In this document: piece after piece, positions 4,545 to 22,608 of the stretch
How the letters are laid out: every line of letters starts with the position of its first letter
Position numbering within the stretch: the first letter of the stretch is position 1
NCBI RefSeq assembly: GCF_016861975.1
Contig: NZ_BOMB01000025.1
Span: forward strand, 1-64,000
Direction of reading: 5' to 3'
Length of the DNA stretch: 64,000 nt
DNA from: Actinocatenispora rupis
GTDB taxonomy: Bacteria > Actinomycetota > Actinomycetes > Mycobacteriales > Micromonosporaceae
The notes under the pieces: generated by a model
The model's input: the letters and a program-made list of their open reading frames with translations, nothing else
Told to the model about the DNA's origin: nothing
Databases searched by the model: none
Made by a program: the position numbers and the translations under genes

Positions 4545-6323
4545 CTAGGCGGGGCAGGCGGTGCCGTCGAGGGTGAAGGCGCCCGGTCCGCCCGCCCCGG
4601 TACGTCCCGAGACGGTCAGCCCCACCTCGGCGTCCCCCCGCGCGTTCCAGCTCGCGTTCTGGACCGTGACGGTACGCCCGCGCGTCGTGTACCGGCCGTT
4701 CCACAGTGATGCGATCTTCTGGCCCGGTGGCAGCCGGAAACCGAGCGTCCACCCGGTACGGCTCGGCGTGAAGCGGATCGTCGCGCTGTAGCCCGTGTCC
4801 CACGTGGACCCGATCGTCACGCGCACCCGGCAGCCCTCCGCCACCGGAGTACGGCTCGGCGACGGTGCGGCCGACCGGGTCGCCGAGCGGGACGGCCGGC
4901 TCGGGCGCTCCGTCCCGCGCGACGGTACGAGCCGGTCGGTGACCGGTGTCGCCGTCGTCGGCGCCGGATCCGGCTCCGACCGCAGCAGTACGGCCGCGCC
5001 ACTGCCACCCGCCGCGGCCAGCACCGTCACCGCCCCGAGTACGGCGAGGGTCCGGCGGCGGCCGCGGCGCGCCGGCCGGTGACTCGCCGGTACGACCGGC
5101 AGCTCCCGCGTGACCTCCACGTGGCCGCCCGGAACCGTCGCGTCGGCCGGTACCCGCTGCGCCGCCGCACCCGCGGGCACGGCGCCGTCCGTACCGGGTG
5201 CTGTGTGGTCGACGGACCGAGCGGGTGGCGCCGAACCGTCGACCACGGGCCGGGACGGCGCAGCAGTGTCCTCGACCGCCGGGGGAACCGCTCGGGCGGC
5301 GTCCTCCGGCCGCGCCGTCGTGGCCCCGGCAGGCTGCGGAACCGATCCCTCGACACGGGTCGGCGGCGGCAGCTCCGAAAGCACCGCCGGCTCCGGCGAC
5401 GGCCTGTCGTCCGGCGCCGGTCGTCCGCCCGGCGCCGCCACCTCCGGAGACGGCGGCACGTCCGATGACGCGGTGTCGGAGGGGGACGCGGTGCCGGAGG
5501 GCGACGCGGTGGCGAGGGCGGCGAGGGCGGTGGCGAGTTCGGCGGCGGCGGGCCGGTCCTTGGCGCGTTTGGCGAGGCAGCGCCGGCGCAGCCGGTCCAC
5601 CTCTGGCGGCAGTCCGGGGATGGCCGGGAGCGGCGCGGGCGGCCCGTACCAGTGGGAGAGCGCCACGTCGCCGGTCGTCTCGCCGCCGAACGGGCTGTCG
5701 CCGGTGAGCAGGACGTGCAGCAGGACGCCGAGCGAGTACACGTCGGCGGCGGGTTCGACGGGCAGGCCGGCGAGCCGCTCGGGCGACAGGTACGCGGGGG
5801 TGCCGACGATGGTGTTCTCGCCGGGCTCCGAGTCGGGAGTACCGGCGGCGACGGAGATGCCGAAGTCGACGACCTTGGCGCCGGTATCGGTCAGCAGCAC
5901 GTTGCGTGCGGTGACGTCGCGGTGGACGATGCCGCGTTCGTGCGCGGCGGCGAGCGCGTCGGCGACCTCGCCGGCGAGGCGTACGGCGGTGGGCCAGGGG
6001 AGCGGGCCGGTGCGCAGGCGTTCGGCCAGGGATTCGCCGTCGACCAGCTCCATCACGACGAACGGCAGGACCGTGCCGTCGGGTGTGGTCGTCTCCGCGT
6101 AGTCGAACACGTTGACCACGTGCGGGTGTACGAGCCGGGCGACGGCGCGGGCCTCGGTACGGATCCGGTCGGTGTGCCCGGTGCCGCTCAGCACCTTGAT
6201 CGCGACCGGCCGCTCCAGCACCCGGTCGTACGCCAGCCACACCACGGACATCCCGCCGGCGCCGAGCCGGCGTCGCAGCCGGTACCGGCCGGCGAGGACC
6301 GCGTCGGTACGTACTCCGTTCAC
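4545..6323 (-). CDS. Membrane Ser/Thr protein kinase with extracellular CBM2-like domain
   Basis: Starts at GTG 6323 (VNGVRTDAVLAGRYRLRRRL), giving 592 residues; the open frame further upstream overlaps the phosphatase gene. Kinase domain about 14-275: glycine loop GAGGMSVVW, Lys43 in VAIKVL, catalytic loop HRDVTARN (134-141) and DFG at 153-155. Then a long Pro/Thr/Ala-rich cytoplasmic linker, one membrane helix (TLAVLGAVTVLAAAGGSG), a Ser/Arg/Thr-rich stalk and, at about 495-592, a domain with CRVRVTIGSTWDTGYSA, WNGRY and a final TACPA that reads as a carbohydrate-binding module of family 2. The topology places the kinase inside and the binding module outside, so a polysaccharide ligand is plausible. 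The catalytic loop lacks the Lys usual in Ser/Thr kinases (HRDxKxxN). Confidence 0.88.
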   Translation of the reverse strand: MNGVRTDAVLAGRYRLRRRLGAGGMSVVWLAYDRVLERPVAIKVLSGTGHTDRIRTEARAVARLVHPHVVNVFDYAETTTPDGTVLPFVVMELVDGESLAERLRTGPLPWPTAVRLAGEVADALAAAHERGIVHRDVTARNVLLTDTGAKVVDFGISVAAGTPDSEPGENTIVGTPAYLSPERLAGLPVEPAADVYSLGVLLHVLLTGDSPFGGETTGDVALSHWYGPPAPLPAIPGLPPEVDRLRRRCLAKRAKDRPAAAELATALAALATASPSGTASPSDTASSDVPPSPEVAAPGGRPAPDDRPSPEPAVLSELPPPTRVEGSVPQPAGATTARPEDAARAVPPAVEDTAAPSRPVVDGSAPPARSVDHTAPGTDGAVPAGAAAQRVPADATVPGGHVEVTRELPVVPASHRPARRGRRRTLAVLGAVTVLAAAGGSGAAVLLRSEPDPAPTTATPVTDRLVPSRGTERPSRPSRSATRSAAPSPSRTPVAEGCRVRVTIGSTWDTGYSATIRFTPSRTGWTLGFRLPPGQKIASLWNGRYTTRGRTVTVQNASWNARGDAEVGLTVSGRTGAGGPGAFTLDGTACPA

Positions 6324-6382: not shown

Positions 6383-8764
6383 TCACACGGTACGGGTGGC
6401 GACGATGACGCAGAGGTCGTCGTCGGGCGCCGACCCGAGCGAGTCGGTGACGTGGTCGACCAGCGCGGTCGGGTCGGCGAGGTCGATGTGTTCGGCGGCG
6501 TGCAGCAGGACGTCGAGCCCGCTCGCCAGCGTCCGGTCCCGCCGTACGACGAGGCCGTCGGTGTAGAGCAGCACCCGGTCGCCGGCGCCCAGGTCGACCG
6601 TCGTCTCCTCGTACGCGATGTCGGGCGCGGCGCCGACCGGCAGCCCGAGCGGCCCGGTGAGCACCGCGGGACGCCCGTCCGGCGCGTACCGCACGGGTGC
6701 GGCCTGGCCGGCCGCCGCCCACTGCAGCACGTGGCCGTCGGGCGAGTAGCGGGCGACGACGAGGGTGGCGAGCTGGCCGCCGGCGAGTTCGCCGACCATC
6801 CGGTTGAGCGCGGTGAGCAGCTCGCCGGGCGCCATCCCGAGCACCGCGTACGCCCGGACGGCGTTGCGCAGCCGGGCCGCCGCGACCGTCGCCGCCAGCC
6901 CGCTGCCGGTCACGTCGCCGACCACCAGGTACGTGCCGGTCCCGGTGGCGAACACGTCGTACCAGTCGCCGGCGACCCGGCCGGTGGACTCCGGCGAACG
7001 ACACAGCCCGGCCACCGCGACGCCCGGGGTGGTGGTCAGCTCGGGGTCGGTCGGCAGCAGCGCGTCCCGCATCGTCTCCGCGGCCCGCGACTCGGCCGCG
7101 AGCCGTTGTCGTTGCGCCGCAAGGGCTTCCTGCGCGCGCCGCAGCTGCGACTCGACCGCGCGTTCGGAGGTGACGTCCTGCACGGTGCCGCGGATCGCCC
7201 ACACCGCACCGTCCGCGTCGAACTCCGGCTCGCCGCTGACCCGCAGCCGCCGCCCGGGCGCGTCGGCCAGCCGGTGCTCCACCGTGAACGCCCGCCCGGC
7301 GAGCAGCGCGCCGCGGATCGCCTCCTGCACCGCGTACCAGTCGTCGTCGTGGACGTACGCCTCGCCGTCGGAGAGCGGCAGCGCGCCCTCCGCCTCGGTA
7401 CGCCCGAACAGCCGGTACAGTTCCGGCGACCAGCGCGCCTCGCCGGTCCGCAGGTTCCACCAGAACGAGCCGATCCGGCCGATCCGCTCCGCCTGGAGCA
7501 GTTGGTCGTACAGCAGGTCCGCGTCGGTACGGGTCCGCCACACGACCAGGACGCTCTCGCCCACCCGCGCCGCGTTCACCTGCGCCACCAGCGAATGCTC
7601 GGTACCGTCGGCCGCCGCGTCCACGGTCACGTCGCCCAGGTGGCACGGCGTCCCGTCGGCGAGCACCTTCGCGAACTCGCCGAGCAGCAGCCGGCTCCCG
7701 GTGTCCGGCAGTACGGCGAGCAGCGTGCGCTCGGTGGCGTCCGGCCCGGCCAGCCCGGTCAGTTCACCCGCCGCCGCCGTGTTCGTGTACTCGTACCGGA
7801 AGTCGACGACCCGGCCCTCGTCGTCCCGGACGGCGGTGAGCAGCGCGGCGGGATCCGGCACGCTGTCGAGTACGGTGCGGACCGGGTCGTCGGCCGCGCC
7901 CGCCAGGTCCGCCGCGGACAGCCGGCCGACCCGCCGCCCGATCGGCTCCGCCAGCGCCACCAGGTACCGGTGCGCGTCGTCGGTCAGCGTGGCCGGCTTC
8001 GCCCAGCCGATCGCGAGTACGCCGACCTGCTCGGCCTCCGGCCGCGACTCCGGCCCCCGGTACGCGGGCAGCGGCACCGCGAGCACCGACCGCAGCGCGG
8101 TGTCGCCGGTGTCGGCCAGCCACACCGTGTCGTGCCGCGCGAACGCGTCGCCGGCCGCGCGCGCCAGCGGCGCCGCGTCGACCGTGCCGTACCCGCCGAC
8201 CGGGGACAGCGCGTCCGCCGGGTCGCGCAGGAGTACGAGGACGGCGTCGGGGTGCGGCCAGCCCGTCGACGCCTCCGCGATCGTCTCGGCGATCTGCGGG
8301 TACTCCCGCGCCGTCGTGATGCGGGCGGCGAGCAGCTGGTGCTGCGCCTGGAGCGCCTCGGCGGCGGGCTCGCGGGCGGGCGGTGCCGGGTGCCGGCGCG
8401 CACCGCTGCGGGCCCGCGCCAGGTACTGCCCCAGCTCGTCGTCGAGGAACGCGCCGTGCTCCGGGTCGGGTGCCGGCGCGGTCGCCCCGACCAGCGCGGC
8501 GGCCACCTCGGCGAGCTTGATGTTCGTCCGCTGCGACAGCCGTACCAGCTGGTCGAAGGCGTCGTCCGGGGTGACGCCCAGCCGTTCCACGAGGACGCCC
8601 TTGGCCTGCTCGATGACCGCGCGGTTACGCATCGCCCGTCGCATACCGGACAGCTCGTCGCGCAGCCGGGCCACCACGCTGGCGAGTGCCTCGGTCGGCT
8701 CCGCCGGTACCTGCTCGTCCGGCGACGGTGCCGGCTCGGCTGCCTGCCCAGCCTGCTTCTTCAC
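6383..8764 (-). CDS. SpoIIE-type PP2C phosphatase with ANTAR, GAF and PAS domains
   Basis: A 793-residue cytoplasmic protein. Residues about 28-90 (MRRAMRNRAVIEQAKGVLVE ... AFDQLVRLSQRTN) match an ANTAR RNA-binding module; then a GAF-like region (about 130-260), two PAS-like regions (about 270-540; WWNLRTGEARWSPELYRLFG is typical of a PAS core) and a C-terminal PP2C/SpoIIE phosphatase (about 570-793) with the metal-binding acidic motifs GDWYDVF, VVGDVTGSG and the terminal DDLCVIV. All metal ligands look intact. Such proteins dephosphorylate anti-sigma-factor antagonists; here the substrate is unknown. It lies 59 bases upstream of the Ser/Thr kinase on the same strand, which suggests an opposed kinase/phosphatase pair. 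Confidence 0.88.
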   Translation of the reverse strand: MKKQAGQAAEPAPSPDEQVPAEPTEALASVVARLRDELSGMRRAMRNRAVIEQAKGVLVERLGVTPDDAFDQLVRLSQRTNIKLAEVAAALVGATAPAPDPEHGAFLDDELGQYLARARSGARRHPAPPAREPAAEALQAQHQLLAARITTAREYPQIAETIAEASTGWPHPDAVLVLLRDPADALSPVGGYGTVDAAPLARAAGDAFARHDTVWLADTGDTALRSVLAVPLPAYRGPESRPEAEQVGVLAIGWAKPATLTDDAHRYLVALAEPIGRRVGRLSAADLAGAADDPVRTVLDSVPDPAALLTAVRDDEGRVVDFRYEYTNTAAAGELTGLAGPDATERTLLAVLPDTGSRLLLGEFAKVLADGTPCHLGDVTVDAAADGTEHSLVAQVNAARVGESVLVVWRTRTDADLLYDQLLQAERIGRIGSFWWNLRTGEARWSPELYRLFGRTEAEGALPLSDGEAYVHDDDWYAVQEAIRGALLAGRAFTVEHRLADAPGRRLRVSGEPEFDADGAVWAIRGTVQDVTSERAVESQLRRAQEALAAQRQRLAAESRAAETMRDALLPTDPELTTTPGVAVAGLCRSPESTGRVAGDWYDVFATGTGTYLVVGDVTGSGLAATVAAARLRNAVRAYAVLGMAPGELLTALNRMVGELAGGQLATLVVARYSPDGHVLQWAAAGQAAPVRYAPDGRPAVLTGPLGLPVGAAPDIAYEETTVDLGAGDRVLLYTDGLVVRRDRTLASGLDVLLHAAEHIDLADPTALVDHVTDSLGSAPDDDLCVIVATRTV

Positions 8765-8914: not shown

Positions 8915-10207
8915 GTGCGGAGAACATCCGCCCTCGCGCGGCCTGCCCTGTTCGCCGCGGTACTCGGCACGGCGGCGGCGGTCCTGCTGCCCGGGTCCGC
9001 GGCCGCCGCGCCCGACCTGCGCGCGCGCAGCTGGTACCTGGAATCCCTGCACCTCGCGGCCGCGGAGCGGATCGCGACCGGTCGTGGGGTCACCGTCGCG
9101 GTGCTGGACAGCGGCGTCAACGAGATCCCCGAGCTGTCCGGCCGCGTCCTCCCCGGGTACGACCCGGGCGGCGGCGACGGTCGCCGTGACCGCACCGGCC
9201 ACGGTACGAGCATGGCGGCGCTGATCGCCGGCGCCGGCGGCAGCGGAGACCGGCTGCTCGGGGTGGCACCACGGGCGACGATCCTGCCGGTGTACGCGTT
9301 CGGCCAGCCGTTGCCGGTCCCGTCGGCGACGATCGTCCGGCTCGTGCACCACGCGATCGATCACGGCTCGCGCGTCGTCACCATGTCGTTCGCCGCGCCC
9401 GACGCGACACCCGCGTCCGCCGGCTGGAAACGCGACCCCGTCTCGTACGCGGACGCCCACCGCGCGGTGCTCGTCGCCGCCAGCGGCAACCGTACGGAGG
9501 GCATGACCCGCATGGGCCGCCCGGCCGACGTACCGGGGGTCGTGGCGGTGACCGGCCTCGCGCGGGACGGCGGCGCCTGGTCCGGTTCGGTCACCGGCGC
9601 CGCCGCGGCCGTCGCGGCGCCGGCCGAGGCCCTCTCGTTCCCCACCGGCATCCCCGGCAAGGAGACCGGTACGGCCAGCGGTACCAGCGGCGCCGCCGCC
9701 CTCGTCTCCGGCGAGCTGGCCCTGATCATGGCGAAGTACCCGGGGATCTCGTCCGCGGACGCGATCAACCGGCTCGTCCGCACCGCGCGCGACCTCGGCG
9801 CCAGGGGCCGCGACCCGGTGTACGGGTTCGGCGCCGCCGACGCCGCCGCCGCGCTGACCCGGGACGTACCGAAGGCCGGCGGCAACCCGCTGCGGACCGC
9901 GTCGCCGTCGGCCGGGTCCGACTCCGTGGTCCCGGGCGTGTCGACGGTCGTGCTGCTCGCGGGCGTCCTGGTGGCGGCCGTGCTGGTCGCCGCCCTCGTC
10001 CTGATCATCCTCGTGGTACGTGCGCGCCGCCGCCGCGGTCCCGGTGACGGCGGTGGCGGTGGTGGCGGCGGCCCGGGCGGCCCCCCGCCGTACGGTCCCG
10101 GCCCGGGGCCTACCGGGTACGGTGACCCGCCCCAACAGCCACCCGTACCGGCGCAGCCCGCTCGGGTACCGGTCGGTCAGTCGAGCGGCCCGCCCCGCAG
10201 TCCCTGA
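8915..10207 (+). CDS. mycP: Type VII secretion-associated subtilisin-like protease (mycosin), short cysteine-free form
   Basis: GTG 8915 follows AGGGAGG by a few bases; the 430-residue protein starts with a signal peptide ending near AAAAPDLRA. Catalytic triad D65 (VAVLDSGV), H96 (GHGTSM) and S258 (GTSGAAALVSG), oxyanion Asn in AASGN. The C-terminus has one membrane helix (VVLLAGVLVAAVLVAALVLIILV) and a Gly/Pro-rich cytoplasmic tail, the standard mycosin layout with the protease outside. I see no cysteines, so the disulfide of classical mycosins is absent. It converges on the tagged substrate module and is paralogous to the protease at 25197. The open frame to 6344 overlaps the phosphatase and is spurious. 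Confidence 0.92.
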   Translation: MRRTSALARPALFAAVLGTAAAVLLPGSAAAAPDLRARSWYLESLHLAAAERIATGRGVTVAVLDSGVNEIPELSGRVLPGYDPGGGDGRRDRTGHGTSMAALIAGAGGSGDRLLGVAPRATILPVYAFGQPLPVPSATIVRLVHHAIDHGSRVVTMSFAAPDATPASAGWKRDPVSYADAHRAVLVAASGNRTEGMTRMGRPADVPGVVAVTGLARDGGAWSGSVTGAAAAVAAPAEALSFPTGIPGKETGTASGTSGAAALVSGELALIMAKYPGISSADAINRLVRTARDLGARGRDPVYGFGAADAAAALTRDVPKAGGNPLRTASPSAGSDSVVPGVSTVVLLAGVLVAAVLVAALVLIILVVRARRRRGPGDGGGGGGGGPGGPPPYGPGPGPTGYGDPPQQPPVPAQPARVPVGQSSGPPRSP

Positions 10208-10240
10208 CCGGGGCTCCGGTGGCAGCATTCCGGTGACAGC

Positions 10241-10270
10241 GCAGGGGCCGGGGAGTCACCCGGCCCCTGC
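10241..10270. terminator. Hairpin between convergent genes
   Basis: A perfect 12-bp stem, arms GCAGGGGCCGGG and CCCGGCCCCTGC, with a 6-base loop, lies between the stop codons of the mycosin and the tagged substrate gene. There is no T-tract on either side, as usual in very GC-rich actinomycetes. It can serve both strands. Confidence 0.75.
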
Positions 10271-10287
10271 ACCGCGATCCGGTGCGG

Positions 10288-11385
10288 TCAGGCGTCGTCG
10301 CCGCTGGCCCTCGGCCGGCCGCCGAGCACCCCGCTCGCCGCCTCCTCGTCGCCGCCCCAGACCTGCTCGTCCTCCGTCAACCAGGTGCTGTACTCCGCCG
10401 GCTCGTCCTCGCCCCCACCGCGCCGGCCCGGCGCGCCCCGGCCCGACACGCTCGACGTACCGTCCGCGGCGGGGCCGAAGCGGCCGACCCCGGCACCGAC
10501 CCCGCCCGCGCCCTGCGGCGCCGACGCGAGCGCGCTGCCACTTGTGTCACCAGGTACTCCGGCACCGGTCGGCCCGGCACCCGCACCGGCCAGCGCCGTC
10601 GACCCGAGTACGTCGGGGTGGGCTCCGCCGTCGCCGTTGGTACCGCCGCGGTTGCCGTCGCCCGCTTGCGGCCCGTCCGGCCGGCGTACGTCGAAGGTCC
10701 CGTGCCTGTCGTGGCGGTTCGCGGCCGGGTCGGTGGCCGGCACGCCCGACGTCCCGGTGGACGTCGCCGACCGTACGTCCGGGTCGCTGTCGTGCGTGTC
10801 GTCGCCGGGCATGTCGTGGTTCCAGTCCGGCGCGGACCACTGGTGCGCCCCCGTCTGGTACTTCCCGGCCAGCCCCGCGACCAGCGCCACCATCCGGTTC
10901 CTGGCCTGCTCGCGCTGGTGCTTGTCGCGGTTGTGGCCCATCACGCCGCCGATGAGCCCGCCGACCGGGCCGGCGACGACGGCCCCGGCCACGGCGCCAC
11001 CCATGGTGGAGTCGTTGTCGTCGGTCCGGTCGGGGTTCTCGTTCTGCTTCTGCGCCTCGCGCAGGTCCGCCGACAGGTCCGCCATCGTCGTCTGGAACGT
11101 GCCGATGTCCGTGGACAGGTCCTCGGCGAACTGCGACACCAGCGCCATCCGTCGCTGGAACTCGTCGCCCGCCGCGCTCGACCACTGCGCGCCCAACGTG
11201 GCCAGCTCGGTACGCAGGTTGGTGTGCAGGTCGTGGGCGCCCCGTACGATCTTCTTCCACTCCGCGAGCAGGTCGTCGACCTGCTCCGGGTCACCGGCCT
11301 TGAGCCACCTGTACAACTCGTCGTGGCTGTACTTCCCGTACTTCTCGACCAGGTCCTGGTTGTCGACCGGTGGCGGCGCACCCAT
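10288..11385 (-). CDS. Large WXG-like type VII substrate with conserved C-terminal tag (module 1)
   Basis: ATG 11385 shares one base with the stop of the gene before it (TGATG), so translation is probably coupled. The 365-residue protein begins with a helical domain of about 110 residues resembling WXG100/PPE-type helical hairpins, but at the turn it has QWSSAAGDEF rather than W-x-G. A Gly/Ala-rich stretch (VAGAVVAGPVGGLIGGVMGH) and a long Gly/Pro/Asp-rich low-complexity region follow. The C-terminus carries TWLTEDEQVWGGDEEAAS followed by GVLGG. The same tag pattern ends the protein at 24080-25135. By position and shape it is a likely export substrate; no enzymatic domain is recognised. Confidence 0.8.
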   Translation of the reverse strand: MGAPPPVDNQDLVEKYGKYSHDELYRWLKAGDPEQVDDLLAEWKKIVRGAHDLHTNLRTELATLGAQWSSAAGDEFQRRMALVSQFAEDLSTDIGTFQTTMADLSADLREAQKQNENPDRTDDNDSTMGGAVAGAVVAGPVGGLIGGVMGHNRDKHQREQARNRMVALVAGLAGKYQTGAHQWSAPDWNHDMPGDDTHDSDPDVRSATSTGTSGVPATDPAANRHDRHGTFDVRRPDGPQAGDGNRGGTNGDGGAHPDVLGSTALAGAGAGPTGAGVPGDTSGSALASAPQGAGGVGAGVGRFGPAADGTSSVSGRGAPGRRGGGEDEPAEYSTWLTEDEQVWGGDEEAASGVLGGRPRASGDDA

Positions 11386-11747
11386 CAGGACCCCTTCAAC
11401 GCGGTACCGACCGGGCCCATCGTCCGGGCGATGTCCCTGCTGTTCGCGTGGTTGCGCGCCTCCGCCGTCGCGTACGTGTCGAGGATGCTCGTGGTCGCCT
11501 TCCGCGCCGCCTCGACCGCGCTCCGCAAGCGCTGCACGCGGGCGCGGTAGTCCGACACCATCGACGCGTAGTACGACTCGGTGTCGGTGGCGTCGGGGAA
11601 CCCGCCGAGCTTCGGCGGTACGTCGAGCAGCTTGTCGTCGATCGTCTTGAGCATCGACGCGATGGCGCTGTGGTGGTTGTCCAGTGCCGTCGTGAAGTCC
11701 GCCAGCGAGTGCACGTCCACGACGGTCCTGCCGTACTCCGTGGTCAT
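11385..11747 (-). CDS. Small helical partner protein of the tagged substrate (module 1)
   Basis: Read from ATG 11747 (MTTEYGRTVVDVHSLADF), 120 residues, almost entirely predicted helix, without signal peptide or membrane segment. Its tail, EARNHANSRDIARTMG, resembles DRNNASMKDFDTAF in the 147-residue protein at 23626, and both are directly followed by a large tagged WXG-like gene. This suggests a PE/PPE- or EsxA/EsxB-like heterodimer, with this protein as the small half. Stop and next start overlap by one base. The ORF extends upstream to 11843, but those codons precede a natural start and look non-coding. Family name not recognised. Confidence 0.75.
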   Translation of the reverse strand: MTTEYGRTVVDVHSLADFTTALDNHHSAIASMLKTIDDKLLDVPPKLGGFPDATDTESYYASMVSDYRARVQRLRSAVEAARKATTSILDTYATAEARNHANSRDIARTMGPVGTALKGS

Positions 11748-11897
11748 CGAAGAGCCCCGTTCGTCCGCTACGTCTTCGTCGATCCGGATCGGGGCCGCGC
11801 GGCGTGATCGACCCCTGACAGCCGTACACCAGCCTAGGGACACGGCTTCGCATGTCTGTCGGCTCTGTTGCAGAACGTCGGTTGTCGGATGACCGAC

Positions 11898-13334
11898 TCA
11901 GTCGCCGGCCTTCTGCGCGCTCGCGGTCGGCGACGGCGCCGGGGCCGAGGAGAACTTCAGCGCCGCGTCCGGATCCAGCGCCGGCCCGGTCGGCACCAGG
12001 TCGAGCAGCGGCTTCGGCACCGCCACCGGCTTCTTCCCGCCGTACCCCAGCAGGTCGGCGGCCTTCTTCCTGCCCGAGTCGACCAGCGCGTACTTGTGGC
12101 CCTGGTCGGTGACCAGGTAGATCGTGGTGCCGGCGGTGACGCCCGGCTGCGGCTCCTCGCGGACCAGCGCGCCCCGCCCACCCGGTACGACGATGCGGTC
12201 GGCGACCGGTCCGTCGTCGGCCGGGCCGCTCGCCTCCTGCGCGGCGTTCGGGTCGGGGCGGAGCGCGGCCGGCGTCTGCGGGTAGAGCCGGAGCCGGACC
12301 GACCCGCTCGTCCCCTCGTACGCCGCGCACACCGCGGGCTGGCTGCCGCTCGGCGCCGCGATCCTCGGTACGCGCTGCGGAAAGCCGGTCGCCTCGATGG
12401 TGTTCTTGCTGTTCAGGTCGCCGGCGACGGCGCTGGACGGTACGTGCGTCGGCTGCGCCCCGCCGAGCAGCAGCTTCGCGGTCACCTCGTGGATCGACAC
12501 CAGCCCGTCGCGCAGCAGTACGTAGTAGACGCCGCTGCTCTCGAAGACGTCACCGACCTTGTGCTCCGCGCCGTTCACGGTACGGCCCGGCTCGTCCTTG
12601 CCCGGGATGGTCGGCGGGGCCAGGTCCGGGCCGGACGGGATGGCGCTCAGCATCGCCGTGCCCACCACCGAATGGTCGGCGCCGGTCAACCCCAGCGAGG
12701 TCAGCGCCGTCGCGTCGGGCACCTTGAACCGTTCGTCGTGCCACAGCAGGTACGTGGTGCCCTGCGTGTCGCCCTCGGTCACCAGCAGGCCGTCCTGCCC
12801 CGGGCCGGCGCCGCCGGGCAGCGCCCGACCCACCATCAGCTCCGTCGCCAGCGTGCTCGACGAACTCGCGTACTTCGGGGAACTGCACACGATCCACGGC
12901 ATGCCGAGCAGTGCCGACGGGTCGGGAATCGAGTCGGGCGCGCCGACGATCCCGGTCGCCGCACCGCGCGGTACGCCACGCAGCGAACTCGCCGAGACCT
13001 GTTGCGGCGCAACGCTTCCGACGATGAGCCGGGCGGACGCGTAGTTCAGGATCGGGTGCAGCTCACCGCTCTGGTACACGTAGCGGGCGCCGGACTCGCG
13101 CTCGATGACGAACGAGCCCTCCTTCTTCCAGGAGTCGGCGCCGCCCGGACGCAGCACCCCGTAGACCCCGACGCCGGCGAAGACGATCACGCCGACCATG
13201 AGGCTCGCGAACGCCGCGAGCCCCAGCCGGCGCATCGGCAACACGGTGCTTTCCGGCTCGCCCGAGAGCATCGCGCCGACGATCCTCCGGGTGACGAACC
13301 GGTATCCCTGCAGCTGTTCCCGCCGAGTCGGCAT
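11898..13334 (-). CDS. eccB: Type VII secretion protein EccB
   Basis: 478 residues beginning MPTRREQLQGYRFVTRRIVG, the highly conserved EccB N-terminus, followed by a single membrane helix at about 37-60 and a large exported domain with the GSFVIERESGARYVYQSGELHPILNY segment typical of the family. EccB is a core part of the ESX membrane complex, its outer domain forming the periplasmic roof. It reads away from eccE and probably shares a transcript with the substrate module 150 bases downstream. Cysteines are present in the exported domain (for example WIVCSS and PAVCAAY), consistent with a disulfide. Confidence 0.95.
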   Translation of the reverse strand: MPTRREQLQGYRFVTRRIVGAMLSGEPESTVLPMRRLGLAAFASLMVGVIVFAGVGVYGVLRPGGADSWKKEGSFVIERESGARYVYQSGELHPILNYASARLIVGSVAPQQVSASSLRGVPRGAATGIVGAPDSIPDPSALLGMPWIVCSSPKYASSSSTLATELMVGRALPGGAGPGQDGLLVTEGDTQGTTYLLWHDERFKVPDATALTSLGLTGADHSVVGTAMLSAIPSGPDLAPPTIPGKDEPGRTVNGAEHKVGDVFESSGVYYVLLRDGLVSIHEVTAKLLLGGAQPTHVPSSAVAGDLNSKNTIEATGFPQRVPRIAAPSGSQPAVCAAYEGTSGSVRLRLYPQTPAALRPDPNAAQEASGPADDGPVADRIVVPGGRGALVREEPQPGVTAGTTIYLVTDQGHKYALVDSGRKKAADLLGYGGKKPVAVPKPLLDLVPTGPALDPDAALKFSSAPAPSPTASAQKAGD

Positions 13335-13374
13335 TGCGAACTCCCCGTGTGTCGCATTGATGCCAATCCCTGGT

Positions 13375-13391
13375 CGATCGGAGGACGATCG
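13375..13391. promoter_or_regulatory. Candidate operator between eccB and eccE
   Basis: Two CGATCG hexamers lie 11 bp apart, one helical turn, in the 184-bp divergent spacer between eccB and eccE. The spacing suits a dimeric regulator that could control both directions. No binding protein is known from the sequence. Confidence 0.3.
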
Positions 13392-13518
13392 TATGACCGG
13401 CGTGCAACGGTGGCCCGTGCCGGTTTTGTGCCGGCCCTACGATGGGTGGCCGCCGCGGACCGATGCGTACTTGCGGCGTCCGTACTCGGATGTCCTGAAC
13501 GGGGAAGGATGGCGAGGC

Positions 13519-14766
13519 ATGGTGATGACGCAGGCCCCGCCCGCGCGGGCCCGTGCCGCGGTCCGGGTCGACGACGCGGGCGCCGGGGAGGTGCGTTTCG
13601 CCCCGCGCGGCGGCCGGCGCCGGTTCGGCGGCGTGCGGGTCACCCAGTTCGTCCTGGCCGAGCTGGGGCTCGCCGCGCTGGTGATCGCCGCGAACCGGGA
13701 ACCCCGGCCGATCTGGCTGGTCGCGGCCGGCGTCGTCGCGCTGGCGCTGCTGTTCGTGGCGTTCGGGCGCAGCGGCGGCCGCTGGTGGACCGAGTGGATC
13801 ACCCTCCGCCGGCGGTACCGCAGGCGTCGCGGCGCGCTCGGCGGCGCCACCGAGGACGCCCGGCTCGCCGCGCTGCGCCGGCTGGTACCCGAGCTGTCCA
13901 TCCGTACGGTCGAGGACCGGGGCAGCCGCATCGGCATCGGGCAGGACGAGTCCGGCTGGTTCGCCGTCGTCGCCATCGCCCCGCGTACCGGGCTGCGCGG
14001 TGACCCGACGGAGAGCCTGCCGCTGGACGCGCTCGCCCGGGTCCTCGACGAGGGCGGCCTGCGCGTCTCCGTACTCCAGGTCGTCGTGCACAGCATCCCC
14101 GGGCCGGCCGCGCTGCTGGACGACACCGCGCCCGCCGCCCGCTCGTACCGGGAGCTGGCCTCGGGGGACACCGGCGTGGAGCCGATCGACCAGCGGTGCT
14201 GGATCGCGGTCCGGCTCGACCCCGCCGCGGCGTCCGAGGCGGCGGCCACCCGCGGCGGTGGACTCGACGGCGTGCACCGAGCCCTGTGTACCGCGGTCGG
14301 CCGGCTCGGGAAGGCCGTCAGCGGCGCCGGCCTCGACTACGAACTGCTCGACGCGGAGGGTGTCCGCGACGCGCTGGCCCAGTCCTGCGGCGTCACCGGG
14401 TACGTCGACCCCGGCTCGGTCGGCACCATCGGCGAGCAGTGGTCGAGCTGGCGCGCCGGCGGCCTCGCGCACGCGTCCTTCTGGGTACGGTCCTGGCCGC
14501 GGCTGCGCGACGTCAGCGGCGTGCTCGGCCGCCTCGCGCGTACCCCGGCGGTCATGACCAGCGTCGCGCTGACCATGGCACCGCAGGAGGACGGCACCGA
14601 CTTCCGGGTCCTCGTCCGCGTCGCCGCCCAACCCGAACACCTCGCCACCGACTGCCGCGCGCTGCAACGCCTCGCCGGCGTCTCGCGCGCCCGGCTGTTC
14701 CGGCTCAACGGCGAGCAGGCCCCCTCCGTGTACGCCACGGCCCCGAGCGGAGGTGGCCCGCAGTGA
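13519..14766 (+). CDS. eccE: Type VII secretion protein EccE
   Basis: About 415 residues. Near the N-terminus are two adjacent membrane helices (FVLAELGLAALVIAANR and PIWLVAAGVVALALLFVAFG), followed by a basic patch (RRRYRRRRG) and a cytoplasmic domain of about 300 residues with RTVEDRGSRIGIGQDESGWFA, the EccE pattern. EccE sits at the rim of the ESX inner-membrane complex. The start could be ATG 13519 or ATG 13525; GAGG at 13514 favours the second slightly. The stop overlaps the next GTG by four bases (GTGA), so both are translationally coupled. Confidence 0.88.
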   Translation: MVMTQAPPARARAAVRVDDAGAGEVRFAPRGGRRRFGGVRVTQFVLAELGLAALVIAANREPRPIWLVAAGVVALALLFVAFGRSGGRWWTEWITLRRRYRRRRGALGGATEDARLAALRRLVPELSIRTVEDRGSRIGIGQDESGWFAVVAIAPRTGLRGDPTESLPLDALARVLDEGGLRVSVLQVVVHSIPGPAALLDDTAPAARSYRELASGDTGVEPIDQRCWIAVRLDPAAASEAAATRGGGLDGVHRALCTAVGRLGKAVSGAGLDYELLDAEGVRDALAQSCGVTGYVDPGSVGTIGEQWSSWRAGGLAHASFWVRSWPRLRDVSGVLGRLARTPAVMTSVALTMAPQEDGTDFRVLVRVAAQPEHLATDCRALQRLAGVSRARLFRLNGEQAPSVYATAPSGGGPQ

Positions 14767-16919
14767 GCGTGTACGGATCGCGTCGCCCGCCGGAGGATCC
14801 CGACCCGCCCCACGGCCGACACGCGCAGCCCGACGACGAGGACCAGCCGGCGACCGGCGTCGCGTCACCCGCCGACGGGGCCGGCGGCCGTGCCGTGCCA
14901 CCCACCTCGGGCCCGGCACCGCTGATCCCCGGCCTGGCCCCCGGCCCCGGTACTCCCGGCACCACGTACGGGTCCGCCCGGCCACCCGCCGACCCGCCGT
15001 CGAGCCAGGGCACGTCACCCGCCCGGCCGCCGACCGGCTCGTACCCGGCGGTCGGTGGTGGTGCGCCGCGTCCCCCGGACCCACCCGGTACGGGCCAGCC
15101 CGCCGGATCCCGTGGCGCCCGGCAGATGTCAGGCAGCGCTGGCCAACCGACCGCGGGGCGGCCCGGATCCGCGCAGCCGGCCCCGGGCCAACCCGCTCCC
15201 ACCCGGCCGGCTCCGCCCGGATCTGGCTCTGCGCAACAGATTCCGGGTCAACCTGCTGCACCGGGCGGGCCGGCCGCGGGGCAACCTTCCGTCAAGCCCG
15301 GAACTGGGCGCGCGCAACCGATGCCGGGTCAGTACGCCGCCGGCCAACCGATCTCGGGTCAACCTGGCTCGGGTCAACAGCAAGTGCCCGCCCCGCCCGG
15401 ATCTGGCTCTGCGCAGTCGGCCTCGGGCCAACCTGGTACGGGGCAACCGCCCGCGTCAGCCTCCCCCGGATCTGGCTCGGCCTCGGGGCAACCTGGTACC
15501 GGGCAGCCGGTCCAGCCCGCCCCGCCAGGACCTGGCTCCGCACAACGGATCCCGGGGCGACCCGTCGCGGGGCAGCCGGTCCCGAGCCGACCGGCGGCCG
15601 CTCGGCCGTCCATGGCTCAGCCAGGCCCCGGAGAACCGATCCCGGGGCAGGCTGCTCCCGTTCAGCCTGGAGCGGTACAGGCGGGCGCCGGTCGGCCTGG
15701 ATCCGGCCCCGCGCAACCGATCCCGGCCCCACCTGGCCGGCCGAACCCAGGGCAGCCTGCGCTCGGTCAAGCGACCTCAGGGCAGTCCCTCCCCGCCCAG
15801 CCGGGTGCCGGGCAACCAGGTACCGGACCGTCCACGTACGCCGGGCAGGCGACGGGTGGCGTGGCGCCGTGGCCCGGGCGTACGCCAGGCTCGGACGCCC
15901 CCGTCAGCAGCCCGCCGGTGAGTGGGCCGCCGGTCAGCGCGCCACCCCGGAACCCGGTGAGCGGACCGCCGGTGAGCGGCCCACCCGGTACGGCGGGGGT
16001 GCTGGCGCCGATGAGCGCACCGCAGCAGCCGCGACGGCCGGTCCCGACTGGACCGTCCGGCCCGCTGAACGCCGGGGGTACGTCGACCGTGCTGCCGGTG
16101 TCCGGTGCGCCGGTGTCGGGCGCGTCGATGCCGGGCATCGTACGGCCGGGTCAGGCGCAGCCGCCGCTCGGCGCGGGCACCGTGTACGGCGCGGTCGAGC
16201 CGGCCACCCTGCCGGAGCGGTCGCGTCCGCGCCGGCTGCGACCGTTCTCGCCGATGCGGATCGGCATGCACGGCGTGTCCAGGACGGCGTTGCAGCAGAT
16301 CGAGGTGCCGGGGTCGAGCAGCGGCCTGATGTTGGGGCAGGACGGCAACAAGGTCCCGGTGCTGGTCCGGATGTTCCGTGACGAGCCGACCCGGCTGTCG
16401 CTGATCGGTGGGCTGTGGGCGGCCCGCGTGACGGTGTTCCGCGCGCTGGCGATGGGCGCCCGCGTCGTGGTGTTCACCGGTCAGCCGACCGAATGGAAGG
16501 GTTTCGGCCGCTGGGCGACGGGCCGGGACGACCGGGTCGCGGTGATGTCGGGCGAGCGTGCGGTGACGGTGGGCGCGACGGCCACCTCACCCGCCCTCCT
16601 GCTGTACGACGTGGGCTTGAACGGTGCGCAGCAGCCGCCCGCGCTCGGCCCGTGGCAGACGCAGCTCACGGTGTTGCGCCAGCTGACGGCGTACGGGTTT
16701 CCGCCGGTGCAGGCGTCGAACATGGTACTGATGCAGCGGCTCGCGCCGAACGAGGCGCACGCCGCCGCGTCCGTCCTGAAGCTCACCGACGAGACGGTGT
16801 CGCTGCTGCAACTCCTCCGCGACGACATGCTCGCCGTACTCGGTGGCCAGGCCGACCGGTACCTCTGGCTGAACCCTACGCAGATCGAGAACACGCAGTT
16901 CGGCGCCGCGCACCGCTGA
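14763..16919 (+). CDS. Pro/Gly/Gln-rich repeat protein of the type VII operon, C-terminal domain of unknown function
   Basis: 718 residues, coupled to eccE by a GTGA overlap. Residues about 60-475 are low complexity, built from degenerate units such as GQPAPGSGSAQ and GQPGTGQP and later SGPPVSGPP; no membrane helix is present. Residues about 485-718 form a compact, well-behaved domain with LMLGQDGNKVPVLVRMFRDE, RVTVFRALAMGARVVVFTG, LLLYDVGLNG and a terminal LNPTQIENTQFG. I cannot name it. Location in the operon argues for a cytoplasmic accessory of the secretion machine, perhaps EccE- or chaperone-like; that is inference. Confidence 0.8.
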   Translation: MSVYGSRRPPEDPDPPHGRHAQPDDEDQPATGVASPADGAGGRAVPPTSGPAPLIPGLAPGPGTPGTTYGSARPPADPPSSQGTSPARPPTGSYPAVGGGAPRPPDPPGTGQPAGSRGARQMSGSAGQPTAGRPGSAQPAPGQPAPTRPAPPGSGSAQQIPGQPAAPGGPAAGQPSVKPGTGRAQPMPGQYAAGQPISGQPGSGQQQVPAPPGSGSAQSASGQPGTGQPPASASPGSGSASGQPGTGQPVQPAPPGPGSAQRIPGRPVAGQPVPSRPAAARPSMAQPGPGEPIPGQAAPVQPGAVQAGAGRPGSGPAQPIPAPPGRPNPGQPALGQATSGQSLPAQPGAGQPGTGPSTYAGQATGGVAPWPGRTPGSDAPVSSPPVSGPPVSAPPRNPVSGPPVSGPPGTAGVLAPMSAPQQPRRPVPTGPSGPLNAGGTSTVLPVSGAPVSGASMPGIVRPGQAQPPLGAGTVYGAVEPATLPERSRPRRLRPFSPMRIGMHGVSRTALQQIEVPGSSSGLMLGQDGNKVPVLVRMFRDEPTRLSLIGGLWAARVTVFRALAMGARVVVFTGQPTEWKGFGRWATGRDDRVAVMSGERAVTVGATATSPALLLYDVGLNGAQQPPALGPWQTQLTVLRQLTAYGFPPVQASNMVLMQRLAPNEAHAAASVLKLTDETVSLLQLLRDDMLAVLGGQADRYLWLNPTQIENTQFGAAHR
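15213..15749 (+). repeat. Degenerate minisatellite in the Pro/Gly-rich gene
   Basis: Within the low-complexity half of the preceding gene, a 23-bp stretch encoding PPGSGSAQ is repeated exactly at 15213-15235 and 15393-15415, 180 bases apart, with looser copies near 15468 and 15708. Between them the unit GGGTCAACCTG/GGGCAACCTGG recurs. The array keeps the reading frame, so length changes by recombination would be tolerated. Confidence 0.7.
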
Positions 16920-16922
16920 CCG

Positions 16923-16963
16923 ACGACGGTGCTCCTCCGGCCGTACCGGAGGGGCACCGTCGT
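16923..16963. terminator. Hairpin between convergent genes
   Basis: An 18-bp stem with one G-T pair (outer arms ACGACGGTGC / GCACCGTCGT, inner arms CCTCCGG / CCGGAGG) and a 5-base loop lies between the stop of the Pro/Gly-rich gene and the stop of eccD. It probably ends both transcripts. Confidence 0.8.
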
Positions 16964-16967
16964 GCGG

Positions 16968-18365
16968 TCAGCCCTTGATCGAGCGGATGAACGCGTACGC
17001 CCCGCAGATCCACATGGCCAGCGGGATCACCGAGACGATCAGCAGTACCTCGACGATGTCGACGAGCCGGGTCCACACCGGCATGATCCTGGTTTCGGCA
17101 AGGGCGAGTCCGGAGACGAGGCAGACGACGGCGACGACCAGCAGCGCGGGCAGGATCACCAGCAGCCGCAGCGCCGGCCCGACCTCGGTGAACGCGGCGA
17201 CGGCGGTCAGCCCGAGCCCCAGCATCCCCGCGGTCATCAACGGCAGCCGCTGCCAGCCACCGGCGAACGACCGGCACCGGGCCAGGAGTACCAGAGCGAG
17301 GACGCCGAGGAGGACGAGCCGGGGCCAGCCGGTGCCGCCGAACGCGAGGGCCACCTCGGCGCCGAGCCCGACCACGGCGGTGGCGCCGAGCAGGCCGGTG
17401 AGGTGCCGGTCGGCGGCGTCGCTCTGGTGCAGGACGCGGTGCCCGTCGACGGTCTCGGTGTCGGCGCGCAGCTCGTCGGGGCCGGCGGGGATGGTGGGCA
17501 TCGGCAGCCGCCCGAGCCGGAACGCGCACGACGGCAGTACCGGCGTGCACGCCAGCGCGACGGCGCCGACGACGCCGCCCGCCCCGGCCGCGCTGGCGCC
17601 GAACAGCAGGCTGACCAGGCTGCCGACGACGATCGCGACGCCGCAGATGGCGGCGCCGAGGAAGACGTGCGCGTAGTCGGCGACGGCGCTCGCCCCGAGC
17701 ACCGCGTACAGCACGGCGACGGCGCCGGCGAGGAGTACGTGCGGTGCGCGGAGGTCGCCGACGCCGTGGCCGCCGGCGGCGACCAGCAGGCCACCGGTCG
17801 CCCCGTACGTGATGCCGAGGAGGGCGAGGACGAGTCCGGTCTGGCTGTTGGCCAGGGCCCGCGCGGCGACGGTGGCGGCGACCAGCAGCGCGAGCCCGAC
17901 GCCGAGCGCGCCGAGCGCGCCGGGCAGCTGGGGCGGGCCGGCGAGGACCGTCAGGGCGACGCCGAGCAGCAGCGTGCCGACCGCTGAGCCGATGCCGAAC
18001 CGTCGGGTCAGCGACGGTCGCCAGCGCCCGCCGCGGTCCTGCGTCGCGGTGGCGATCGCGTCCACGACGTCGTCGAACACGGCGTCGGGCGCGGACGTGG
18101 CGCGGGGTGTGAAGTAGAGCTGCTCGCCGTCGCGGATGCCGAGCTGGCCGGCGGACCGCGTGCTGTCGATGACCATGCCGCCGAGTCGGGCGAGCACCCA
18201 GCCGCCCTTGGTGGTGCCGTCGTCGGCCAGGTCCTCCCCGGCGTACCGCAGCAGGGTCGGCAGCAGGTCGGCGAGCGGTACGTCCTCGGGGAGGGCCAGG
18301 TCGATGCGCGTCTTCGGGGCGACGACCGTGACCCGGCACAGTCCACTGCCGACGGTGTTGACCAC
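16968..18365 (-). CDS. eccD: Type VII secretion integral membrane protein EccD
   Basis: 465 residues. The first 90 or so (VTVVAPKTRIDLALPEDVPL ... DGEQLYFTPRA) form the YukD/ubiquitin-like domain of EccD; about eleven hydrophobic helices follow from residue 130 on. EccD forms the membrane vestibule of the ESX complex. The start is GTG 18365 with AGGAGG five bases upstream. It reads away from eccC across a 283-bp spacer. The last residues (AYAFIRSIKG) leave no cytoplasmic tail. Confidence 0.93.
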   Translation of the reverse strand: MVNTVGSGLCRVTVVAPKTRIDLALPEDVPLADLLPTLLRYAGEDLADDGTTKGGWVLARLGGMVIDSTRSAGQLGIRDGEQLYFTPRATSAPDAVFDDVVDAIATATQDRGGRWRPSLTRRFGIGSAVGTLLLGVALTVLAGPPQLPGALGALGVGLALLVAATVAARALANSQTGLVLALLGITYGATGGLLVAAGGHGVGDLRAPHVLLAGAVAVLYAVLGASAVADYAHVFLGAAICGVAIVVGSLVSLLFGASAAGAGGVVGAVALACTPVLPSCAFRLGRLPMPTIPAGPDELRADTETVDGHRVLHQSDAADRHLTGLLGATAVVGLGAEVALAFGGTGWPRLVLLGVLALVLLARCRSFAGGWQRLPLMTAGMLGLGLTAVAAFTEVGPALRLLVILPALLVVAVVCLVSGLALAETRIMPVWTRLVDIVEVLLIVSVIPLAMWICGAYAFIRSIKG

Positions 18366-18398
18366 CTCTGCCTCCTCTGAGCCCTCCGGCCGGTTGGC

Positions 18399-18427
18399 GA
18401 ATCAATCCATCATCGCGGCCCGGTCAA
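18399..18427 (-). promoter_or_regulatory. Candidate eccD promoter
   Basis: On the minus strand TTGACC (18427-18422) is followed after 17 bp by TGATTC (18404-18399), about 35 bases before the eccD start. The -35 box is good and the -10 box only moderate. Confidence 0.35.
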
Positions 18428-18514
18428 GGCGTCTTGGTACGGAAGATCCGGTTTCTCGGTGGGTGTCGGCAGTGTGACAGCGAGGTGGCGCGGATTCGAC
18501 AAGATGGGCGACGG

Positions 18515-18535
18515 GCTCGCGAACGATACGCGAGC
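18515..18535. promoter_or_regulatory. Inverted repeat in the eccD-eccC divergent spacer
   Basis: Arms GCTCGCG and CGCGAGC separated by AACGATA lie midway between the divergent eccD and eccC genes. It could be an operator or an RNA hairpin in the eccC leader. No other copy was noticed at the other type VII promoters. Confidence 0.3.
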
Positions 18536-18648
18536 TGTGTCATGTCCCAATTCGGTACGCAGGGGGCCGAAGTGGAACGACCGGTACAGCGGCCACGGCC
18601 GCGCAGGCGACCCGCCACCATCGACAGGGGTACGACCGCGGAGGCGCC

Positions 18649-21600
18649 ATGAGCACCGTGGTGTTCCGCCGCCCGCCCCGGCGTCCCGGGCCCCAGCTGC
18701 CGCGCGGTGAGCTGCTGTTGGAGTCGCCGCCGGAGGTACCGGAGGAGCTGCCCCGCGGTCTCGGCCAGATCCTGATGGTCCTGCCGATGCTCGCCGGCGC
18801 CGGCGCCATGGCCTTCATGTACGCGGGGCGTGGCGGCGGCATGATGACGTACGTCGCGGGTGGCATGTTTGGCGTGTCGATGCTGGGCATGGCGGTGGGC
18901 CAGCTCGGCGGCGGCCGCGGCGACAAGACCGCCGAGCTGAACGCGGAACGCCGCGACTACATGCGTTACCTGGCGCAGATCCGTAAGCGGGTGCGGCGGG
19001 CGTCGGAGGCGCAGCGTGCGGCGCTGACGTGGAAGCACCCGGAGCCGGACGCGCTGTGGTCGATCGCCGCGTCGCGGCGGATGTGGGAGCGTCGGATATC
19101 CGACGACGACTTCGGCGAGATCCGCGTCGCGGTGGGGCCGCAGAAGCTGGCGGTCAAGATCGTCACGCCGGAGACCAAGCCGGTCGAGGACCTCGAACCG
19201 ATGAGCGCGATCGCGTTGCGCCGCTTCGTCCGTACGTTCAACCCGGTGCCGAACCTGCCGACGGCGGTGTCGCTGCGCGCGTTCAGCCGGATCGTGCTGC
19301 GCGGCGACCGGGAGGCGGACCTGGGCGCGGCGCAGTCGTTGCTGTGCCAGGCGGCCACCCTGCACGCGCCCGACGACCTGCGCATCGCGGTGGTCACCCC
19401 GACGGAGAACTTCGCGCTCTGGGACTGGACCAAGTGGCTGCCGCACAACCAGTACCCCCGGCGTACGGACGCGGCGGGTCCGGTGCGGATGGTGTTCGAG
19501 ACGATGGCCGAGCTGGAGGAGCTGCTGGCGGAGGAGATCTCGGCCCGCCCGCGGCACTCGCCCGACGCCAAGCCGCTGACCGACCAACCCCACCTCCTCG
19601 TCGTACTCGACGGCGGCGAGGTCACGGCGGACTGCCAGCTCACCGGCCCCGCCCTGCTCGGTACCACGGTGCTGGACCTGAACGGGACGGTGCCGCGGGA
19701 CGCCGGCCGCTGGCTGCTGTGCCTCGACCTGTGGCCGGACAAGGCGGAGGTGTACCGCGGGGACCGGAGTACGCCGATCGGGCGGCCGGACCACATGAGC
19801 CGCGAGCAGGCCGAGGCGGTCGCCCGGCAGCTCGCGCCGTACCGGATGTCCGCGCAGGCCGGGCCGGAGGACACGCTGGCCACCGCGTACGAGCTGACGG
19901 ACCTGCTGGGGGTGGGCGACGCCGGCGGCTTCGACCCGCACCGGACGTGGCGGCCGAACAAGCCGAACCGCGAGCGGCTGCGCATCCCGCTCGGCCGCGG
20001 CCCGGACGGCGGGCTGGTCGAGCTGGACATCAAGGAGGCGGCGCAGGAGGGCATGGGGCCGCACGGCCTGATCATCGGCGCGACCGGGTCCGGCAAGTCG
20101 GAGCTGCTGCGCACGATCGTGTCCGCGCTGGCCATCGGCCACTCGTCCGAGGAGCTGAACCTCGTCCTCGTCGACTTCAAGGGCGGCGCCACGTTCGCGT
20201 CCCTCGACGTACTGCCGCACACGAGTGCGGTGATCACCAACCTGGAAGACGAGATCGAGCTGGTCGACCGGATGAAGGACGCGCTGGCCGGCGAGATGGT
20301 GCGCCGCCAGGAGCTGCTCCGCGCCGCCGGCAACTACGTCTCCCAGTACGAGTACGAGAAGGCGCGGCGGGCCGGTGAACCGCTGGAACCGTTGCCCGCA
20401 CTGCTGATCATCTGCGACGAGTTCTCCGAACTGCTGGCCGCGAAGCCGGACTTCATCGAGCTGTTCGTGATGATCGGCCGGCTCGGCCGGTCGCTCGCGG
20501 TGCACCTTCTCCTTGCCTCCCAACGGTTGGAGGAGGGCAAGCTGCGCGGACTGGACACGCACCTGTCCTACCGGATCGGGTTGCGGACGTTCTCGGCGGT
20601 CGAGTCGCGGATCGTGCTCGGCGTCCCCGACGCGTACGAGCTGCCCAACGCGCCGGGCCACGGTTACCTCAAGGTCGACACGTCGACGATGCTGCGCTTC
20701 CGCGGCGCGTACGTGTCGGGTCCGTACAAGCAGGGTGCGGCGAAGGAGCGGGAGCAGGCGCTGGTGTCCGGCAAGGTCGTGCGGTTCACGGTGGACCACA
20801 CGCCGGTGCCGGACCTGCCCGAGGAGCACGAGCCGGAGCCGCAGCACGACGAGCAGGGCGGCAAGCAGACCTCCGTACTGGAGGTCATCGCGGACCGGTT
20901 GACCGGCCAGGGCAAGCCGGCGCACCAGGTGTGGCTGCCGCCGCTGTCCGCGCCGCCGCCGCTGTCGGAGCTGCTGCCGGAGCTGATGGTCGACCCGGAG
21001 CGCGGCCTGTGCCCCGCCGGGTCGGACCGGCTCGGCACGCTGACCACCCCGGTCGGCGTCGTCGACAAGCCGTACGAGCAGAAGCGCGACCTGTTCACCG
21101 CGGAGCTGGGCGGCGCCGGCGGCAACGTGATCATCGTGGGCGGCCCGCAGACCGGCAAGAGCACCATGCTGCGGTCGCTGATCTGTTCGCTCGCGCTGAC
21201 CCACACCCCGCGCGAGGCGCAGTTCTTCTGCCTGGACTTCGGCGGCGGCACCCTCACCACCCTCAAGGACCTGCCGCACGTGTCCGGCGTCGCCACCCGC
21301 CGCGAGGCCGAGGCCGTCCGCCGTACGGTCGCCGAGGTGATCGGGGTGCTGGACGCGCGCGAGGCGCGGTTCACCGAGCTGGGCATCGACTCGATCGCCA
21401 CGTACCGGCGGCGGCGCGCGGCGGGCGAGTTCGCCGACGATCCGTTCGGGGACGTGTTCTTGGTCGTGGACGGCTGGGGCACCGTCCGCGAGGACTACGA
21501 CGAGTACGAGCAGAAGCTGGCCAGCCTGGCGCAGCGCGGCCTCGGCTTCGGCGTACACCTGGTGATCACGGCAGCCCGCTGGGCCGAGGTACGGATCAAC

Positions 21601-22608
21601 ATGCGCGACCTGCTCGGTACCCGGTTCGAGCTGAAGCTGGGTGACCCGGCCGAGTCCGAGATCGACCGGCGCTCCGCCGCCAACGTGCCAGCTCGTACGC
21701 CGGGGCGCGGCCTGTCGCCGCAGAAGCTGCACTTCCTGTCCGCGGTACCGCGGATCGACGGGCACGCCACCGACGAGAACCTGTCCGACGGCGTCGCCGA
21801 CCTGGTACGACGGATCCGCGACGGCTGGTCGAAGGACCCCGCGCCGAAGGTACGGCTGCTGCCGCGGATGTTCACGGCGGAGCGGTTCGTCGAGGAGGCG
21901 CCGCAGAGCCGGTCCGGCCTGGTCACGATCGGCCTGGACGAGAGCCAGCTCGCGCCGGTCGCGCTGGACTTCGCGACCGAGCCGCACTTCTTCGCCCTCG
22001 GCGACTCGGAGAGCGGCAAGTCCACGCTGCTGCGGGTCATCGCGAAGCAGCTGGTCGCGAAGTACACACCGGAGCAGGCGCGGATCATCATCGCCGACTA
22101 CCGGCGTTCGCTGCTGGGCGCGATCGGCGGCGACCACCTCCTCGGGTACGCGGCGTCCGGGCAGGCGTTGCAGGAGATGATGGGCTCGGTCGTCGGCTCG
22201 ATGAAACGGCGGCTGCCCGGCCCGGACGTCACGCCCGAGCAGCTCCGGGACCGCAGCTGGTGGAGCGGCCCCGACCTGTACGTACTGGTCGACGACTACG
22301 ACCTGGTCGCCAGCCCGTCCGGCAACCCGATCGCGCCGCTCGCCGAGTTCCTGCCGCAGGCCCGCGACATCGGCCTGCACCTGATCCTCACCCGCCGGTG
22401 CGGCGGCGCCGCCCGCGCCATGTACGAGCAGGTCGTCCAGCGGCTCAAGGAGCTGGACAGTCCGGCGCTGCTGATGTCCGGAAACCGGGAGGAGGGCGCG
22501 CTGTTCGGCAGCCTCAAGCCCAGCCCGCAGCCGCCGGGGCGCGGCACCCTGGTCCGCCGCAGGGAGGGCAACGAGCTGATCCAGCTCGCGTACCTGCCGC
22601 CGTCGTGA
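18649..22608 (+). CDS. eccC: Type VII secretion ATPase EccC (single-chain, three FtsK/SpoIIIE domains)
   Basis: 1319 residues, so EccCa and EccCb are fused as in ESX-3 and most non-mycobacterial systems. Two membrane helices lie near residues 35-85. Three ATPase domains carry intact Walker A motifs: GATGSGKS (K483), GGPQTGKS (K837) and GDSESGKS (K1124). Walker B is complete only in the first ([10 protein letters not shown]); the second and third read VVDGWG and LVDDYD, the usual EccC pattern in which only the first domain is strongly catalytic. It recognises C-terminal signals of WXG100 substrates through the last domain. The WXG100 pair follows 220 bases downstream. Confidence 0.97.

Follow-up and report, generated by a model that had tools for sequence, protein, structure and literature searches.

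What does a CBM2 domain, a fold familiar from secreted cellulases, do at the end of a membrane Ser/Thr kinase, and what is to be made of a catalytic loop with Thr in the usual Lys position? Both questions are raised by one gene in a 64,000-nucleotide stretch of Actinocatenispora rupis contig NZ_BOMB01000025.1 (Micromonosporaceae; a soil-type actinobacterium), referred to here as the window. As far as its sequence and a structural model can tell, the product is most likely a polysaccharide-responsive membrane Ser/Thr sensor kinase, a reading in which our confidence is about evenly balanced.

Domain layout and the CBM2 fold

Table 1. Positions in the window of the kinase gene, its parts and the adjoining phosphatase gene
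Feature	Position	Strand	Remarks
Membrane Ser/Thr kinase gene	4545..6323	(-)	592 aa, GTG start, stop included; orthologue in 3/3 other genus genomes
Protein kinase domain, residues 14-263	5535..6284	(-)	Pfam Pkinase, 134.6 bits
Catalytic loop HRDVTARN, residues 134-141 (H134-R-D-V-T138-A-R140-N141)	5901..5924	(-)	Thr138 in usual Lys position
Ala/Pro-rich juxtamembrane linker, residues 264-425	5049..5534	(-)	mean identity to orthologues about 0.18
Predicted single transmembrane helix, residues about 426-446, after RRGRRR	4986..5048	(-)	hydropathy
Pro/Thr/Ser/Arg-rich outer linker, residues 453-495	4839..4967	(-)	
CBM2 domain, residues 498-590	4554..4832	(-)	W508, W541, W559 (surface strip), W525 (core), C498/C590
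ANTAR-PAS-SpoIIE-type phosphatase gene, upstream of kinase, 59 bp gap	6383..8764	(-)	order kept in 4/4 genus genomes

A Pfam scan of the protein placed the kinase domain well above its cut-off of 31.7 bits (Table 1) and matched the C-terminal domain to CBM_2 (53.5 bits against a cut-off of 24, E 3e-14). Between them lies the only hydrophobic stretch of the protein, flanked by linkers that are Pro-rich and weakly conserved. Given the basic run that precedes this stretch, the positive-inside rule predicts that the kinase lies inside and the CBM2 outside.

The fold of the C-terminal domain was modelled from the window's sequence and 53 related domains (mean pLDDT 87.5, pTM 0.78). The best Foldseek match to this model is the C. 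fimi CBM2a structure 6qfs (E 8e-9), and a structural aligner returned Z scores of 13.4 to 3ndy_E and 13.1 to 6qfs_A, compared with values near 8 for unrelated Ig-like folds, so that profile score and fold both assign the domain to the CBM2a type. When aligned with the CBM2a of C. fimi Cex, W508, W541 and W559 correspond to W17, W54 and W72, and Gly511 is the counterpart of the Gly that adjoins the first Trp of the strip; the A. rupis domain thus carries the whole three-Trp strip together with its Gly. According to excerpts of PMC5935602, the strip forms the flat face of CBM2a that binds cellulose, and the Gly holds the first Trp in the orientation for cellulose and not for xylan. The fold, the N- and C-terminal Cys pair, the core Trp and the three surface Trp are all shared with the CBM2a domains of secreted cellulases such as Cex (1exg/6qfs), which are joined to a hydrolase, whereas the A. 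rupis domain is joined to a kinase.

An earlier note on this DNA had read the C-terminal end of the membrane Ser/Thr kinase as a CBM2-like module, to be checked for three surface aromatics, and this part of its interpretation stands: Pfam, structure comparison and the orthologues of three congeners agree on the module, the predicted fold is closest to solved CBM2a domains, and the aromatics are the three Trp named above. With curated cut-offs, the CBM2a fold and syntenic orthologues in three congeners, the identification of a kinase-CBM2 protein is far above chance. The direct sensing of polysaccharide that the note had suggested is plausible. The part of that interpretation which dealt with the specificity of the catalytic loop did not fare as well, as described below.

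A single CBM_2 match in each genus genome

To get a view of the domain at close range, we compared A. rupis with three other genomes of the genus (G001, G002 and G003), each of which has a syntenic orthologue of the kinase. Mean identity to these orthologues is 0.78 in the kinase domain and 0.42 in the CBM, where 62 of 97 positions vary within the genus. Despite this divergence, all four members keep W541 and W559, along with the core W525 and both Cys, and the invariance of the two surface Trp counts in favor of a sensor. The replacement of W508 by Gln in all three orthologues, which leaves a strip of WWW or QWW in the genus, counts against it.

A profile search found exactly one CBM_2 match in each of the four genomes, compared with 1, 6, 13, 39, 61 and 69 in six other genomes of the family. 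The sole match in A. rupis is that of the kinase; when the window's CBM was compared with G001-G003, its one match in each fell on the kinase orthologue, which is presumably also where the lone profile match lies. GH6 cellulases were found in none of the 4 genus genomes and in 10/10 other family genomes; the search, which had given no match in any of 14 named controls, was repeated with the family genomes as positive controls. As the genus genomes are 96-97% complete, one such absence could be a gap, but gaps are a less likely cause when all four genomes agree. A single CBM_2 per genome in the absence of GH6 fits a kept, non-enzymatic role for the CBM2 of the kinase, and the module may serve polysaccharide sensing by the cell. 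At the same time, without GH6 a use for sensing environmental cellulose is not evident, which counts against the sensor reading. LPMO_10 genes occur in 3/4 genus genomes and GH18 chitinase-type genes in 4/4, which puts chitin on at least an equal footing with cellulose as candidate ligand. In the window itself, two adjoining ORFs (45926-50998, plus strand) are of the GH18 chitinase type and also carry fn3 and CBM_5_12 domains, and in G001, G002 and G003 the distance between the kinase and GH18 genes is roughly 35-62 kb.

We propose that the CBM2, lying outside the membrane, would bind a beta-1,4-linked polysaccharide, either a cellulose-like glucan or chitin, of the environment or of the cell's own envelope. 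Binding would concentrate or rearrange kinase monomers, leading to autophosphorylation and a signal passed inside, with the adjacent SpoIIE-type phosphatase as a putative opposing partner. The position of that gene makes it a possible partner of the kinase. A PAP2 gene, a hybrid histidine kinase and a type VII secretion locus also lie beside the kinase in 4/4 genus genomes. In the window, the secretion locus spans 8990-22605 and encodes an S8 protease (mycosin-like), WXG100, EccB, EccE, EccD and an FtsK/SpoIIIE ATPase.

The same genomic evidence can be read in another way, with the CBM2 as a tether that localises the kinase at a glycan of the cell's own envelope or hyphal tip, and not as a sensor of environmental polysaccharide. 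The single CBM_2 match and the missing GH6 in all four genomes give no evident sign of cellulose foraging, and the Pro/Thr/Ser-rich outer linker, with its length of about 40 residues, could reach through some of the wall. Tethering is equally compatible with sensing, however, and the sugar polymer of the envelope is itself only putative; we consider this alternative somewhat unlikely.

Stripped CBM2 domains across the family

Upon extending the comparison with an iterated profile, we found a CBM2-like domain in 72 of the best 80 of 453 confirmed kinase loci, the remaining 8 having other kinds of C-termini. All genera represented in these 80 are, we take it, Micromonosporaceae, and the kinase-CBM2 architecture is, on this count, widespread in the family. 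Pfam CBM_2 recognises 54/54 of the members scanned, the window's protein included. As in A. rupis, the parts follow in the same order, the kinases being 50-60% identical and most having the loop Thr. Unlike A. rupis, these relatives have lost the aromatic strip: among the 72 non-genus ectodomains from the best 80 of 453 loci, Trp occupies the first, second and third strip positions in 0, 1 and 0 cases, with the core Trp present in 72/72. They also differ in gene neighbourhood, as comparison of their loci revealed none shared outside the genus. Since relatives in other genera keep the CBM2 without its strip, cellulose binding is not the general reason for the upkeep of this architecture. We found no published name for these kinases, and the family is as defined in the present analysis.

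Several of these loci have features of their own. In the L030-type kinases, from Actinoplanes and relatives, the strip is lost and Trp occurs at two other positions (15/36 and 19/36 rows), possibly a different binding face. Four loci (L033, L095, L098 and L101) have a second, weaker CBM2-like match ahead of the C-terminal one. In Phytohabitans flavus (L044:5827-7463), the kinase and the CBM2-like part are encoded in two frames that overlap, due to a frameshift or a sequencing error. Rugosimonospora africana (L104:4562-6825) has two kinase-like ORFs on opposite strands, overlapping as stop-to-stop frames; the CBM2-like domain at the end of one of them has Trp at the second strip position.

A tree of CBM domains groups those of the genus with CBM2 of non-kinase proteins (support 82/91 and 90/78), apart from the stripped kinase CBMs. 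A single clade of all kinase CBMs is nevertheless compatible with the data, at p-AU 0.21, or 0.125 without the face columns. The non-kinase proteins were taken as found, secretion status not being a criterion, and because they were chosen by similarity to the window's CBM, their aromatic counts of 32/32 are biased upward. Either the genus kept an ancestral CBM2 face that the others erased, or its CBM2 was exchanged; the tree leans toward the latter, in which the genus kinase would have taken a fresh CBM2 from an enzyme.

These relatives also suggest an alternative in which the A. rupis ectodomain, like that of the Actinoplanes-type kinases, has been re-tooled or serves structure alone; it would have no polysaccharide role, and its Trp would be leftovers. 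The full strip is missing from 72/72 non-genus ectodomains among the best 80 of 453 loci, and the first Trp has been lost in the genus orthologues. Against this, two surface Trp have stayed invariant within the genus in a domain that varies at most of its positions, and the genus CBMs fall with non-kinase CBM2 in the tree, with which one kinase clade is still compatible at the p-AU values given above. We therefore regard a purely structural or re-tooled domain in A. rupis as unlikely. Possible, and put forward tentatively, is a two-part account in which the genus has a cellulose- or chitin-responsive Ser/Thr kinase with its only CBM2 as receptor in the absence of GH6, and in the family at large erasure of the cellulose face has re-tooled the CBM2 fold into a set of receptor ectodomains that bind new ligands.

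The catalytic loop

The earlier note had pointed out that the loop lacks the Lys of HRDxKxxN and that the other catalytic residues are intact. Both observations were borne out: the Lys position is Thr138, and the Gly-rich loop, K43, E57, D136, N141, D153-F-G and D194 are all present. The protein passes the Pfam cut-off and has the VAIK Lys, helix-C Glu, HRD Asp, Asn and DFG Asp of a Hanks-type kinase; the Lys that it lacks is typical of such kinases and was not taken as defining. The note had gone on to liken the loop to the HRDLAARN of tyrosine kinases and to suggest altered specificity. Indeed, T138 and R140 together give a superficial resemblance, but the Arg is not kept, as the genus orthologues read HRDVTAAN in 3/3. 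Thr is also common in the family: the kinase tree has 88 rows, made up of 82 relatives, 4 genus members and 2 outgroups, and at the Lys position 67 of them have Thr, 20 Lys and 1 Ala. Finally, the P+1 loop is GTPAYLSPE, a form that marks Ser/Thr kinases. On these three grounds a tyrosine-like specificity was discarded, and altered specificity is unsupported.

Within the A. rupis genome, where 24 of 27 Pkinase matches were aligned and 3 left out, Lys is found in 19/24 kinase-like rows, the others being one Ser, one Thr (this kinase), one Asn and two in which the motif is broken. A single clade of Thr rows, and with it a single origin of the Thr loop, was rejected when the loop columns were masked (p-AU 0.009), so the site has changed at least twice; one gain with a reversion in Phytohabitans is inseparable from two gains on the weak backbone of this tree (bootstrap 38 to 97). 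The Thr, common as it is to many relatives, is probably not special, and as far as can be judged from sequence it probably leaves the kinase active on Ser/Thr.

Published accounts of this position differ. The kinase superfamily motif xxHxDxxxxNxx does without that Lys (PMC1821047), while PMC4702295 states that all EPKs have a catalytic-loop Arg or Lys, argued to be necessary for protein kinase activity. The Thr-loop family is an exception to the rule in that text or employs another group; no compensating basic residue was noticed among the kinase motifs examined. A search of the open-licence literature for the loop strings found no paper. That the Lys-less loop makes this a tyrosine or dual-specificity kinase, or a pseudokinase, is very improbable: the stated need for Arg or Lys and the likeness to HRDLAARN favor it, but the prevalence of Thr in rows that are not one clade, the Arg missing from the orthologues, the Ser/Thr-type P+1 loop, the intact DFG, VAIK and Glu motifs and the superfamily motif all stand against it.

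Known sensors and the place of this kinase

The best PDB sequence relatives of the kinase domain are PknA (E 1e-47) and PknB. Like these PASTA kinases, the A. rupis protein joins a domain of the same kinase family, by one transmembrane helix, to a C-terminal outer ectodomain, theirs being thought to bind a wall component. Unlike them, its ectodomain is one CBM2 without PASTA, and its catalytic Lys has become Thr. The NCBIfam Stk1/PASTA model reaches 254.1 bits against a cut-off of 450, with the match confined to residues 8-278, and a Pfam scan of the 592-aa kinase found no PASTA repeats; membership among the PASTA kinases (Stk1/PknB) was rejected on these grounds. The RsgI anti-sigma factors of Clostridium thermocellum, described as biomass sensors in parts of PMC4711584, offer a second comparison. 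They likewise have a C-terminal CBM outside, a membrane segment and a cytoplasmic signalling part, a likeness that speaks for the sensor reading, but are not kinases: their ectodomains are CBM3, PA14 or GH10, and their output is an anti-sigma domain. The A. rupis kinase belongs to neither group.

We found no paper on kinases with CBM2 in the open-licence literature, from which it does not follow that they are unpublished; a word search of two surveys, PMC2877116 and PMC1262709, found no 'cellulose'.

For actinobacterial kinases in general, these results are a caution that HRDxT loops are no sign of tyrosine-kinase character. With the strip intact or nearly so in the genus and erased in its relatives, pairs of such domains would show cleanly whether the kinase ectodomain is a carbohydrate receptor. 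What PASTA kinases read is peptidoglycan of the cell itself, and if the sensor reading is true, a kinase ectodomain that reads insoluble polysaccharide directly would extend that principle.
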